Below are positions 2,300 through 26,679 of a stretch of DNA of 35,267 nt, in pieces. The notes beneath the pieces were generated by a model, which worked only from the letters and a program-made list of their open reading frames with translations, ran no database searches and was not told the DNA's origin. The translations under genes were made by a program, and so were the position numbers. The DNA lies in the NCBI GenBank assembly GCA_016866335.1, contig VGMT01000024.1:1-35267 (forward strand), in the 5' to 3' direction. Each line of letters starts with the position of its first letter. Within the stretch, counting starts at the first letter, position 1. Origin of the DNA: Bacteroidota bacterium. GTDB lineage: Bacteria > Bacteroidota > Bacteroidia > CAIKAF01.

Positions 2300-4696
2300 T
2301 TAAAGTCTTAGTGCATATTGTATCAGGAAAAATCGAGGGGGGTCTGCAAAAAGTGGCCGCAAGGAGTACGAAAGGTTGGTCAGGTTGTTTACAATCAACG
2401 ACAATCGGCTTTGTGGGCTGATGCTGAAGCCAATTCTAGCGTCCATTACATGGGTGCCCCCGCGCTGTTGCTCGCGGAATTCCTTTAGGCCGGTTTTGAA
2501 GATGTCTTTGTCTAGAATTAAAAAGGCCTCGTCAATGTTCTCCATAAAGCTGTTGTAGCGGTAGCTAAATCCTAGGTTCCATTTTTTCCAAACCATTTCG
2601 GCATCCAGTTTGGCGGTGTGCCTGAACCTGTACTTGAGCACCCGTTCGTTGGGGTCTTCTTTGGTGACGCTGGAAGTCACATTGTAAGTTATTCCCTGTT
2701 CGCCCGGAATGGGATAAATAACAAAATCAGGATCAAGGGTAATGGGGTTGGAGTAGTTGTAGCCAGCTAAGATGTTCAAGGTTAAGTTGGGGCTCAGCTT
2801 TCCAGAAGTTACCACCGAGGCATCGATGCCGTACATGCGCACCGGACCAATGTTCAGCGAGCTGAATGCAATGATTTTATTGCTAAAAGGACCCGCCGTG
2901 AATTCTATGTAATTGTCGTAATCTTGCCAGTATCCCGCCACATCAATCAGGCCGTTGAAACTTTTTCCTAGGCGGAACCCTTGCTTGATGCCCAGTTCGT
3001 AGGAAATGCTGGTTTCGGGTTTTAGGTTGGGAGAAGGCACGATAAAGGCTCCCCCCACCACGGTTTCAACAAAGCGTTCGGCAATGGTTGGAAACCGGAA
3101 CCCTTGGCCCACCGATGCGCGCATAAAGGTATGCTCGGCCATTTTTAAGCTAAGTCCTCCCCGAAAAACAGGTTTGGTTTCTTGTAGGGCGCCAATTCGA
3201 AAATGCTCCAAACGGACCCCCGCCACCGCGCTAAGGCGTTTGCGAAAAAACTTGTTTTCTACCTGAGCGTAGGCGGCCAGGTTGGTTTGTTGGTTATCGC
3301 CTTGGTTTACGTTTCCGGCAAAAATTTCGGAACTGGCAAACACCTGATTCAGCATTATTCCTCCGGTCAGGCTCAGGTCTTTTAACCATACCGACTGTTC
3401 TTCGGAATCCACAAAGCGTTTTTGGTATTGGTATTCGGCGAACAAAACTTGGTTGGCGTTGGCTTGGTTGTTGTCGTTGTCGTTGTTTAGATGGTACAAA
3501 CGGGTGCGTAGGTTGTGGCTGCTGCCGCGCTTTCCAACATAACTGATGTAGGGGTCAACGGCCACCTGCTGCTGAACGGTTCGGGTAACGCTGCCGGCAC
3601 TAAATCGGTAAAAACCCTCGGCTCCATTTTCGTAAATAAAACCAGAGGAACTTCGAGAAAAAAGAAGCGTAGAATTCAATCCAATGCTTAATCCGGGTAT
3701 AGATTTAAAGCGGTATCGGGTGTTTAAATGGGTGCGCAGGCGGTTTCCGTATTGACCGGGGTCGGTTCCTAGGGTGTCGCCGTTGGCCAGAGAAGCCGCC
3801 ACCGAGGGAGGCCCGCTCCAGCCATTTTCGGCTTGGGCGTTCATGCCCACCACCAAATCGAACTGTCCAAACTGCTGAAGGTGGGTGGCCGAAACCCCGG
3901 CCTGCATCGGAGGCACGGCTTTGCTCCAGTCGCGGTTGGCGGGCAAATCGTATATTCCCGCATAGGTTTGAATGCGGGTAGAGGGTTTGGCGCCCGGGTA
4001 GGTGGTGCGCACGTGAATGGCTCCATTCAAAGCACTTGAGCCATACAAAACCGAAGAGGCACCCTTGATCACCTCAATTTGTTCAATGGTTTCGGTGGGT
4101 ACAAAGCTCCAGCTGGCACGTCCGGCGTCGCCCGATAAAATGGGCATATCGTCAACCAAAACCATAACCCGGCTTCCGGCTCCAAACGAATATCCGCTTC
4201 CCGAGCGGATTTGAGGCTCTTCGTCCACGATATTCACTCCGGGCACCTGGCTTAAAACCTGGCTAACGGTGGTGGTGTTTTTGTTTTCAATCAACGCCGG
4301 CCGAACCACTTCCATCGAAACCGTTAACTCTTCTAAGCGTTTTTCGTACTTGCCTTCCGATTTCACCATCATTTCGCCCAAAGTTCGAACTTGAGACTTT
4401 AGTTTAAATTCCATTTTTTTACTGCCGTTGGCTTCCACTTGAACCGATTGGCTAAGAGGAACGTGTTCAATGGAACTGATTTTTAGCAAGACCTCAGAGC
4501 CGGCGGGCACCGATAAAGAAAATTTCCCTTCGGTATCGCTGTAGGTTCCCGAACTGCTGTTCTCAATAACAATGTTGGCAAAGGGAATGGCTCGTCCGGT
4601 TTCGGCATCGATGATTCGACCCTCAATTATGCCTTTTTGGGCAAAAACAGACAAAGGAAACAGAAAAAACAGAAGGCATTTGAATAGGTGCTGCAT
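2300..4696 (-). CDS. TonB-dependent outer-membrane receptor with carboxypeptidase-regulatory-like N-terminal domain
   Basis: This outer-membrane gated channel imports a ligand (siderophore, cobalamin, metal chelate or similar) using energy from TonB-ExbBD. The ATG at 4696 gives a clean signal peptide ([20 protein letters not shown]); an in-frame GTG five codons upstream is less likely. After the signal comes a domain of about 80 residues of the CarboxypepD_reg-like type ([17 protein letters not shown]), common in Bacteroidota receptors. The plug domain follows, ending in [20 protein letters not shown], and then a beta-barrel to the C-terminus. There is no adjacent SusD-like lipoprotein, so it is not a polysaccharide SusCD pair. 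No neighbouring gene names the ligand. It has its own promoter upstream (-7 box at 4763-4770). Confidence 0.93.
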
Positions 4697-7755: not shown

Positions 7756-7926
7756 AGCCGCGGCAGGGATTGAGCTGGCTACCCCGCAAAGACCGAAACG
7801 GCAGCCGGCCCTTGACCGGCAGAGCGACGCGAGGAGCTACTGCCGGGCGCGGGCTGGCCCGGTTTCGGACTGCGGAGTAGCCGCGAAAGCCCGTTCGCCG
7901 CCCGTGGAACCGCAGCCCATGGGCGG
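7756..7926 (+). repeat. GC-rich structured intergenic repeat, copy B (first of a tandem pair)
   Basis: Same family as copy A, with an outer GCGGC/GCCGC stem and an inner helix GGCTAC (7777-7782) with GTAGCC (7877-7882). The apical loop is GACGCGAGGA (7826-7835) on an AGC/GCT plus GGCAG/CTGCC stem. B and C also have an extra 3' hairpin, CCGCCC(G/A)TGG with CCATGGGCGG. Copy C follows at a 202-bp period. The gap 7677-8200 between the divergent DUF4271 and arginase genes holds essentially only these two copies and promoters. Confidence 0.88.
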
Positions 7927-7957
7927 CCCCTACACTCCCACATGATAAACAGCCACG

Positions 7958-8128
7958 GGCCGCGGCAGGGATTGAGCTGGCTACCCCGCAAAGACCGAAA
8001 CGGCAGCCGGCCCTTGAACGGCAGAGCGACGCGAGGAGCTACTGCCGGGCGCGGGCTGGCCCGGTTTCGGACTGCGGAGTAGCCGCGAAAGCCCGTTCGC
8101 CGCCCATGGAACCGCAGCCCATGGGCGG
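7958..8128 (+). repeat. GC-rich structured intergenic repeat, copy C (second of a tandem pair)
   Basis: A near-identical direct duplicate of copy B. Only two differences were seen within the shared element. One (ACCGG to AACGG) shortens a small side stem. The other (GTGG to ATGG) turns a G-U pair of the 3' hairpin into A-U, leaving it intact. The spacer between the copies is unrelated to the sequence after copy C. Confidence 0.88.
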
Positions 8129-8157
8129 ACTCTACTCCATTATCAAAAATCCCTTTG

Positions 8158-25005: not shown

Positions 25006-25084
25006 TTTCCTTGCGCAGGGACAATTCTATTGCCCCCGTTGGGGAAAGGAGAATCGGAAACCCCTAACCAAGGTAAAAATACCC

Positions 25085-25092
25085 TACCTTTG
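25085..25092 (+). promoter_or_regulatory. -7 promoter box of the second glycosyltransferase gene (TACCTTTG)
   Basis: An exact TAnnTTTG match ending 3 nt before the chosen ATG, again predicting a leaderless mRNA. It lies inside the longer TTG-initiated frame starting at 25030, which argues against that frame. Confidence 0.5.
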
Positions 25093-25095
25093 AAC

Positions 25096-26034
25096 ATGGC
25101 AGAATTGCTGCGGATAAGCGTTGCAATAGCAACTTACAACCGAGAAAAATATATTGGGAAAGCCCTGTTGGGCTTGCTGAATCAGGACTTACCCTACGCT
25201 GCATTTGAGGTTTTGGTGATTGACAACAACTGCAGCGACGCTACCATGAACGTGGTTAAAGACTTTCAGGAAGCGCACCCTCAACTTCAGATTCGAACCA
25301 TGTTGGAAGCAAAACAAGGACTTTCGCATGGTCGAAACCGAGGAGTTCAGGAGGCCAAGGCCAGTTACATCACCTTTTTGGATGATGATGCCGTTGCGCC
25401 CCCTGATTTTTTAAGCAAAGCCGTAAACTACTTAGATTCACGACCGGAGTTGCTGGCCATTGGTGGAAAAATTGAACCGGAATTTGTAGATGGAAAGCCC
25501 AATTGGTACACCCGTTATTATTGGGGGGTAACGGGTCAATTTGATGCCGGAGATGCAGAAGGAGCCATGTTGGATTGGGGAAAATTTCCTTGCGGGAGCA
25601 ACATGACCTTTCGGCGCGATTTTTTTAATGATTATGGCCTTTTCAATCCAAATTTAGGCCGAAAAGGGGCAATCCTTCTTGCAGGCGAAGAAAAAGAGCT
25701 TTTTAGTCGGGTTAAGGGCTTAGCGCGACAGCGAATTTGGTATTATCCAGATTTAACGGTTGGGCATTTGGTTGACAATCAAAAATTGAACCCAACCTAC
25801 CTAAAAAAATTCTGCATTGGCTTTGCTTTGGGGGAACGACTTGAAGTCGCTGAAGCCCCCATTTTGGTTCGAATTCGTCGACACCTAGAATTTACAGCAA
25901 AAAGTGCGGGAACACTTCTTTTGGGCCTAGGTTATTTGCTGCAAGGTCAACCCGCCAAGGCCAGAATGATTGTGCGTTTTGGAACCTGGATTTTTTGGGG
26001 GTTATGGTTTAGCCCAATGCCCCGTAGTGGGTAG
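25096..26034 (+). CDS. Family 2 glycosyltransferase
   Basis: A glycosyltransferase of 312 residues with a GT-A fold. It has the N-terminal nucleotide-binding VAIATYNREKYI, VIDNNCSDAT, GLSHGRNRGVQEA and the metal-binding FLDDDAV. The acceptor-side region contains CGSNMTFRRDFF and LLAGEEKELFSR, the latter with acidic residues in the general-base position. The C-terminus is hydrophobic and may associate with the membrane. Probable role: transfer of a sugar onto a surface glycan or glycolipid; substrate unknown. The last residues (PRSG) and the stop codon are encoded by the start of the TAGTGGG array, so the C-terminus is set by the repeat. Confidence 0.85.
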   Translation: MAELLRISVAIATYNREKYIGKALLGLLNQDLPYAAFEVLVIDNNCSDATMNVVKDFQEAHPQLQIRTMLEAKQGLSHGRNRGVQEAKASYITFLDDDAVAPPDFLSKAVNYLDSRPELLAIGGKIEPEFVDGKPNWYTRYYWGVTGQFDAGDAEGAMLDWGKFPCGSNMTFRRDFFNDYGLFNPNLGRKGAILLAGEEKELFSRVKGLARQRIWYYPDLTVGHLVDNQKLNPTYLKKFCIGFALGERLEVAEAPILVRIRRHLEFTAKSAGTLLLGLGYLLQGQPAKARMIVRFGTWIFWGLWFSPMPRSG

Positions 26035-26290
26035 TGGGTAGTGGGTAGTGGGTAGTGGGTAGTGGGTAGTGGGTAGTGGGTAGTGGGTAGTTCAAGCTAT
26101 TCGGGAGTGCTCAACGAACTGCGTCAGAAAGTCTAAGTTCACTGCATAATTATACATTATTTTCTTGAACTACCCACTACCCACTACCCACTAAAAACTA
26201 CCCACTACCCACTACCCACTACCCCCTACCCACTAAAAACTACCCACTAAAAACTACCCACTAAAAACTACCCACTAAAAACTACCCACC
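26025..26290. repeat. Inverted pair of heptamer tandem arrays with a 67-nt centre
   Basis: The left arm has nine exact TAGTGGG units (26025-26087), then TAGTTCAAG. The right arm starts CTTGAACTA (26164-26172), followed by 16 heptamers (26173-26284): CCCACTA, with AAAACTA variants and one CCCCCTA, alternating CCCACTA/AAAACTA at the distal end. The innermost 30 bp of the arms are perfect inverted repeats (26067-26096 with 26164-26193). The left arm has nine GGG runs spaced by TAGT, a G-quadruplex-type pattern on the plus strand; the right arm has it on the minus strand. No gene lies in the array apart from the end of the glycosyltransferase; the 26097-26163 centre is not recognised. Confidence 0.95.
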
Positions 26291-26334
26291 AGCCGAACAA
26301 AATGGCTTGCAGCGTATCAACACAGAATAATCTG

Positions 26335-26342
26335 TATTTTTG
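26335..26342 (+). promoter_or_regulatory. -7 promoter box of gatC (TATTTTTG)
   Basis: An exact TAnnTTTG match ending 4 nt before the gatC ATG, predicting a nearly leaderless transcript. It lies about 45 bp after the heptamer array. Confidence 0.5.
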
Positions 26343-26346
26343 ATGT

Positions 26347-26679
26347 ATGAACGTCGAAATTAGTCCGAAATTATTGGCCCATTTGGCCCACTTGAGCCGA
26401 TTGGAATTTGAACCCCATGAAATTCCACAGCTTCAAGCCGATTTAACCCGGATTTTAGGTTTTATTGATTCCTTGTCGTCCATTGATACAGAAGGTGTTG
26501 AGCCATTGGTTCATTTGTCGGACCGGAAATTTTTTCTAAGTCCTGAAAACCCCGAACAGCCTAGAAAAGACGAGGTTCTATCGGACAGGACATTGAGCCA
26601 CGAAGAAGCTTTGCAAAATGCCCCGCAGCGCGACAGCGATTATTTTAGGGTGCCCAAAGTGTTGAGCGGAAAAAAATGA
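26347..26679 (+). CDS. gatC: Aspartyl/glutamyl-tRNA(Asn/Gln) amidotransferase subunit C
   Basis: The small subunit of GatCAB, which converts Glu-tRNA(Gln) or Asp-tRNA(Asn) to the amidated forms. It is 110 residues, the normal size. Family marks are LLAHLAHLSRLEFEPHE at the N-terminus, the helical LTRILGFIDSLSSIDTEGVE (52% of family members keep a similar pattern is not claimed; only the visible pattern is), PLVHL, and the C-terminal FRVPKVL. gatA and gatB are not adjacent, as is common. Its stop overlaps the start of the nitrilase-family gene by 4 nt. Confidence 0.92.
   Translation: MNVEISPKLLAHLAHLSRLEFEPHEIPQLQADLTRILGFIDSLSSIDTEGVEPLVHLSDRKFFLSPENPEQPRKDEVLSDRTLSHEEALQNAPQRDSDYFRVPKVLSGKK

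Follow-up and report, generated by a model that had tools for sequence, protein, structure and literature searches.

A probable internally deleted copy of a one-gene insertion element with inverted heptamer arrays, between a glycosyltransferase gene and gatC in a Bacteroidota genome

Two facing arrays of 7-bp repeats in a Bacteroidota genome are probably the ends of a non-autonomous (MITE-like) copy, shortened by internal deletion, of an insertion element that has a single gene, is related to rRNA intervening sequences (IVS), and would work by the mechanism proposed below. In its complete form, such an element has a 7-bp repeat array, then a single gene of the four-helix-bundle 23S-rRNA-IVP/S23 family, and then an inverted copy of the array. 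This anatomy, a four-helix-bundle gene between inverted 7-bp repeats, recurs across many bacterial phyla and a few archaea. The window analyzed here is the whole stretch of 35,267 nucleotides around the arrays, lying in contig C24 of a 2.45-Mb draft genome.

Direct reading and TRF both gave a left array in which nine perfect TAGTGGG units are followed by TAGT (9.7 copies, 100% match), and TRF resolved the right array into 8.7 copies of a 14-bp unit at 88% match (Table 1). An inverted-repeat search placed the arms at 26025-26096 and 26164-26235 (72 nt, 94% complementary, 67 nt apart), with perfect pairing over the innermost 30 bp. An earlier sequence-only reading had described the facing arrays, their 67-nt centre, the perfect inner pairing, and the right-arm 14-bp unit, and all of these were borne out. 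Folded as single-stranded DNA, the feature reached -83.2 kcal/mol, compared with -33.4 +/- 3.6 in dinucleotide shuffles (z -13.8, 0/200), a foldback far beyond chance; the foldback potential suggested from sequence is real in the window, and it is general for the family. The nine GGG runs reported for the left array are also present, amounting to four or more G-runs at short spacing, but G-quadruplex formation did not hold as a common property, and we rejected it as a shared function, since most words of the family are not G-rich and lack GGG (AGCTTAT, AGTTTAA, GAGATTT, and others). The suggestion of a terminator also fell away, as a search from 25800 to 26500 turned up no terminator-like site. 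An Rfam search returned only weak sub-threshold matches to plant miRNA hairpins, which we read as generic long-hairpin matches.

Table 1. Parts of the feature and neighboring host genes, in window positions
Feature	Position	Strand
Upstream host gene, family-2 glycosyltransferase; end (MPRSG*) apparently displaced by insertion, compared with KPKA*/MPKP* in congeners	25030..26034	+
Left terminal array of inward-reading TAGTGGG x9.7, with the glycosyltransferase stop codon supplied by its TAG at 26032-26034	26024..26091	+
Inner edge of left arm, TCAAG of TAGTTCAAG; partner is CTTGA of right arm	26092..26096	.
67-nt centre, probable four-helix-bundle (PF05635/TIGR02436) gene remnant that lacks most of the coding region and does not encode the protein	26097..26163	-
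C-terminal gene piece inside the centre, reverse complement GTGAACTTAGACTTTCTGACGCAG; homologous to the intact gene of the sister species (G001)	26119..26142	-
Leader and putative start-codon piece, reverse complement TCAAGAAAATAATGTATAATTATGC; common to the C40 copy and two G001 copies	26143..26167	-
Right terminal array, CCCACTA and CCCACTA+AAAACTA; minus strand reads TAGTGGG inwards	26168..26289	-
Host DNA right of the presumed insertion; pre-gatC sequence GAATAATCTGTATTTTTGA recognizable in empty-site congeners	26290..26346	+
Downstream host gene, gatC	26347..26679	+

The sequence-only reading had named a unique occurrence with no similar pairs in relatives as its refutation, and a search for the centre and for other heptamer pairs found the opposite. 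A second array pair lies in the same genome at C40:17961-18280, with TAGTGGG in 9.6 copies, a right arm of ACCACTA/AAAACTA heptads, and a centre 90% identical to that of the window over 51 bp. The window and C40 pairs share one word, as recent copies would. A further centre match in this genome, at C4:88847, was judged on reading to be due to chance. The sister species G001, a congener, has about ten more loci with TAGTGGG arrays, several of them at contig ends, and arrays of the related words TAGTGGT, TAGTTGT, and TAGTTGG occur in other families of the same class. At G001 loci L081-L089, the arrays sit within a longer repeat unit of ~120-140 bp, often at contig ends, in which one side bears CATTCGTGCATTCGTGG and the other the final bases of the four-helix-bundle gene.

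The centres of the G001 copies, when read on the minus strand, carry on the C-terminus of a four-helix-bundle protein (NLDFLTQKNSSNLLMNCEEVGKML). The family has a member of solved structure, PDB 2gsc (E 1e-23). One intact gene of 126 aa is present in G001 (PF05635, 138 bits, E 1.9e-40; TIGR02436, 131 bits, E 1.7e-38), and it directly adjoins nested deletion copies. At that locus (L084, positions 2480-3500 of G001:C24), the gene stands beside a tRNA sequence and is followed by three nested deletion copies, and the arrays on its two sides share one orientation where an inverted order is usual. Alignment revealed one common internal deletion, in which a leader ending TAATTATGCA, like the ATGCAy start of several intact genes, is fused to GNGAACTTGGACTTTCTGAC from the C-terminal third. 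From those ATGCAy start regions, we infer that the leader piece in the window includes the start codon. The junction of leader and ATGCA with GNGAACTTGGACTTTCTGAC is common to the window, C40, and G001, and the same deletion junction at three different genomic places indicates copying of a deletion derivative. In the window copy, more of the C-terminal piece has been lost. Homology between centre and gene is transitive, as the window is 90% identical to C40 and 83% to G001, while its direct match to the intact gene is weak (E 0.014). A profile search of the window's genome gave no PF05635 match, and the window feature is not itself an intact gene of the family. With no intact gene found there, the window copy is probably immobile now. 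Collectively, the copies are short and non-coding, with inverted ends and an internal deletion of a longer element, and they occupy several sites, with orthologous sites that are empty, as in MITEs. They differ from MITEs in that variable arrays, and no fixed sequence, form the ends, no target duplication is seen by eye, and no parent transposase is known.

The orthologous site was examined in three congeners, G001, G003, and G004 (77-83% identical in GatC), in which the glycosyltransferase ends in KPKA* or MPKP* and is followed by an array-free spacer and then gatC. In the window, the array starts at the last glycosyltransferase codons and provides the stop, and the pre-gatC sequence is still recognizable. 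The simplest reading of this comparison would be that an insertion specific to this lineage took place at the gene's 3' end.

A further site is the spacer before a GroEL-like gene (groES-groEL from translated ends) in genus g63, probably Flavobacterium. An element is present here in G114. The G154 spacer, with flanks 98% identical to those of G114, is 81 bp long and holds heptad debris of another word and no element. No target-site duplication is evident by eye at this G114/G154 site or at the window site. In five other species the element is complete, at 414-478 bp; G195 shows an inverted heptad pair that lacks the gene; and in most other species the spacer measures 42-91 bp. Comparison of these spacers shows gain or loss, and decay, at one site, including a derivative of the same kind as the window copy. 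Separately, three of the groES-groEL spacers (L340, L349, and L351, within L228/L322-L351) hold a different inverted sequence that is C/G-rich. Presence and absence, together with dispersal, suggest that the element moves. The earlier proposal that the window arrays are the remains of a mobile element is accordingly backed by the second copy, by the three congeners in which the site is empty, and by the make-up of the centre, two pieces of a four-helix-bundle gene.

To characterize the family, we collected the flanks of intact genes at 166 loci. Of these, 30 came from the same class, a further 60 were taken from the same genomes, and the other 76, all that were usable, came from wider genome contigs (Planctomycetes, Acidobacteria, Alpha- and Betaproteobacteria, Clostridia, Cyanobacteria, candidate phyla, and Methanophagales). 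Arms were scored as the best local match between the 300 bp upstream and the reverse complement of the 300 bp downstream, with a cut-off score of at least 14. Inverted arms were present at 79 of 106 loci, compared with 1.2% of 1620 random intervals in the same loci. The 60 added loci contributed 45 with arms, for a total of 124 of 166 (75%), all loci being best-scoring matches that are not phylogenetically independent. Matches in direct orientation reached the same cut-off at 12% of loci. No clear arms were found at a quarter of the gene loci, including that of the intact G001 gene. An S23/IVP ORF thus lies between terminal inverted repeats at 124 of the 166 loci, and the window has the repeats with the ORF as two pieces. 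At one Syntrophomonadaceae locus (L179, 2501-2936), the gene's first third is followed by heptads and then by a second copy that restarts, forming a tandem or nested element.

The arms are periodic at 7 bp, with autocorrelations of 0.52, 0.49, 0.43, and 0.37 at lags 7, 14, 21, and 28 against a background of 0.26-0.29, and no further peaks apart from a small rise at lag 8. Their words vary (TAGTGGT, AGGATCA, GAGATGT, AGCTTAT, AGTATTG, AGTCGGG), though when aligned they follow NNTNAG(T/G), with A and G at 91% and 95%. The word profile holds 4.78 bits, compared with 3.92 for shuffled words and 3.50 when the strand is randomized, and this collapse with randomized strands indicates a conserved inward polarity of the arrays. 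At the same cut-off, the two arms of a locus match in 74% of cases, arms from different loci of one genome in 4%, and arms from other genomes in 2.5%. Because words match within a locus and not across one genome, the data point to homogenization in cis between arms; we rejected genome-wide homogenization, as words differ among loci of the same genome.

The left arm starts a median of 5 bp from the preceding gene's stop codon, and the right arm ends a median of 11 bp before the next gene. The left neighbor is co-directional in 146 of 156 cases, compared with 75% of control pairs (p 3e-5), as expected if the element is read from a host promoter. The remnant in the window is oriented against its host operon and in this departs from 94% of intact copies. 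Named examples of position include the nrdB-nrdA region on a Nostoc edaphicum plasmid and the cas6-cas4 interval on plasmids of Anabaena sp. 90 and Pseudanabaena galeata; six plasmid loci were checked, and two had no arms. At the cas loci (L354 on P. galeata pPg_01 and L355 on Anabaena sp. 90 pANA02), the gene between cas6 and cas4 has inverted heptad arms. IVP genes have been reported in cas loci (PMC3936711), and heptad arms at two such loci suggest insertion, rather than a cas function, for cas-associated IVP genes.

The nearest known system is the IVS of 23S rRNA, found with an S23/IVP ORF in Coxiella burnetii, for example, and proposed to be of selfish or transposition-remnant origin (PMC4990558). 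Both are ~430-450 bp long and have one ORF of the PF05635 family between terminal inverted repeats, but the IVS is an insertion in helix 45 of 23S rRNA that RNase III cuts, whereas the elements described here separate protein genes and have terminal arrays of 7-bp period, with words private to the locus. Lying between a glycosyltransferase gene and gatC, and not in rRNA, the window copy is not an IVS. It could still be an intergenic IVS-like RNA element, in which the arrays would make the transcript fold, the stem would be cleaved by RNase III, and RNA pairing would be preserved by selection. The shared gene family, the RNase III-cut terminal inverted repeats described for IVS (PMC4990558), the co-direction within operons, and the strong fold of the window are all compatible with this. 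However, arm mismatches were of the G-U type in 269 cases and the A-C type in 324, giving no sign that pairing is kept as RNA; the arms have a repeated word in common and not a fixed paired register; and searches of the 166 loci with three 23S motifs found no convincing match to an rRNA context. We therefore consider an RNA element rather unlikely.

Arrays also occur away from the four-helix-bundle gene. HMM searches found no such gene near the solo arrays L090-L100, so some arrays are solitary or part of something else, and at one array (G116:C231) a PF13366 gene lies ~800 bp away. Among 30 PF13366 (PDDEXK_3, GxxExxY) loci in relatives (L292-L321), 22 passed the cut-off of 14 with inverted arrays; their words include CACAGAG/CGCAGAT, and they show a period of ~9-10 bp and no 7-bp peak.

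Family-specific periods (7 bp for PF05635, ~9-10 bp for PF13366) would suit protein binding, as would be expected if the arrays were immobile cis-regulatory operators of the encoded protein in an autoregulating operon, with the window holding a decayed gene and its operators. The closeness of the arms to the gene and the conserved word frame agree with this idea. Operators would not, though, be expected on both sides in inverted order, nor to show presence/absence at orthologous sites or to recur as deletion copies at different places, and a shared operator is hard to square with words that differ from locus to locus within one genome; we regard this explanation as quite improbable. Simple-sequence expansion by slippage at a chance inverted heptamer pair, possibly G-quadruplex-prone and without any element, fits the abundance of heptamer arrays in some bacteria (PMC4679880, PMC4692102) and the length variation in 7-bp steps, but it is scarcely credible given the second copy with a related centre, the gene-derived centre, the empty site, and the strong association of inverted heptads with one gene family.

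Under the insertion-element reading, we propose the following mechanism. The element occupies short operon spacers, right after one stop codon and just before the next gene, and the array pair would serve as its recognition and foldback end structure. The encoded protein, which has a solved relative that is a pentamer of four-helix bundles, would recognize the heptads. Array length would shift by 7-bp slippage, and cis copying through foldback template switching may keep the arms of one locus alike, which would make words differ between loci and match within one. Deletion derivatives would be mobilized in trans. At ~440 bp, the element is too small for any known transposase, integrase, or reverse transcriptase. 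Avd, the protein of diversity-generating retroelements, belongs to a homologous four-helix-bundle family, to which the similarity is weak (NF033474, E 1e-9, below cut-off).

Two known classes of heptamer resemble the arms. The TAACTGA heptamers of Beggiatoaceae, cyanobacteria, and Bacteroidetes have been described as direct repeats and read as translation signals (MacGregor 2015, PMC4679880); they too form intergenic 7-bp arrays by start and stop codons, in overlapping groups, and their other strand, TCAGTTA, has the inward AG. The GGGAATC and GGGGA(C/T)T heptamers of Xanthomonas and Nostoc have been interpreted via G-quadruplexes (Rehm 2015, PMC4692102). These heptamers are likewise intergenic and near stop codons, with 70 convergent inverted pairs in X. 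campestris, the source species of 2gsc, although most words described here cannot form G-quadruplexes. Searching the text of PMC4679880 gave no mention of the four-helix-bundle gene family, and the same for PMC4692102 gave no link to it. The open-access literature yielded no description of the gene family with heptamers or inverted repeats, which does not in itself establish priority.

TIGR02436 proteins occur in 117 of the 149 relatives searched. A single genome has as many as 23 copies, and the annotation given is either ribosomal S23 or one with no function. Our data suggest that this very common, unexplained protein family marks a selfish element between operon genes. A fixed anatomy of inverted private heptads, placed after a stop codon and co-directional, would account for both the spread and the copy number of these proteins. 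Such an element may also join separate puzzles: rRNA intervening sequences, the TAACTGA and GGGAATC heptamers, and IVP genes in cas loci. More tentatively, it is possible that these are widespread minimal mobile elements of bacteria and some archaea, with one small gene, no recognized recombinase, and inverted arrays with a period dictated by the protein family (7 bp for four-helix-bundle/IVP and ~9-10 bp for PF13366). The word would be private to the locus and rewritten jointly in both arms, the protein would recognize periodicity and the AG frame and not a fixed sequence, and rRNA intervening sequences would be a special case. Elsewhere in the window, an intergenic stretch at 7757-8135 consists of a G+C-rich 202-bp unit beginning GCCGCGGCAGGGATTGAGCTGGCTACCCCGC, repeated 1.9 times at 97% match and unlike the DNA around it.
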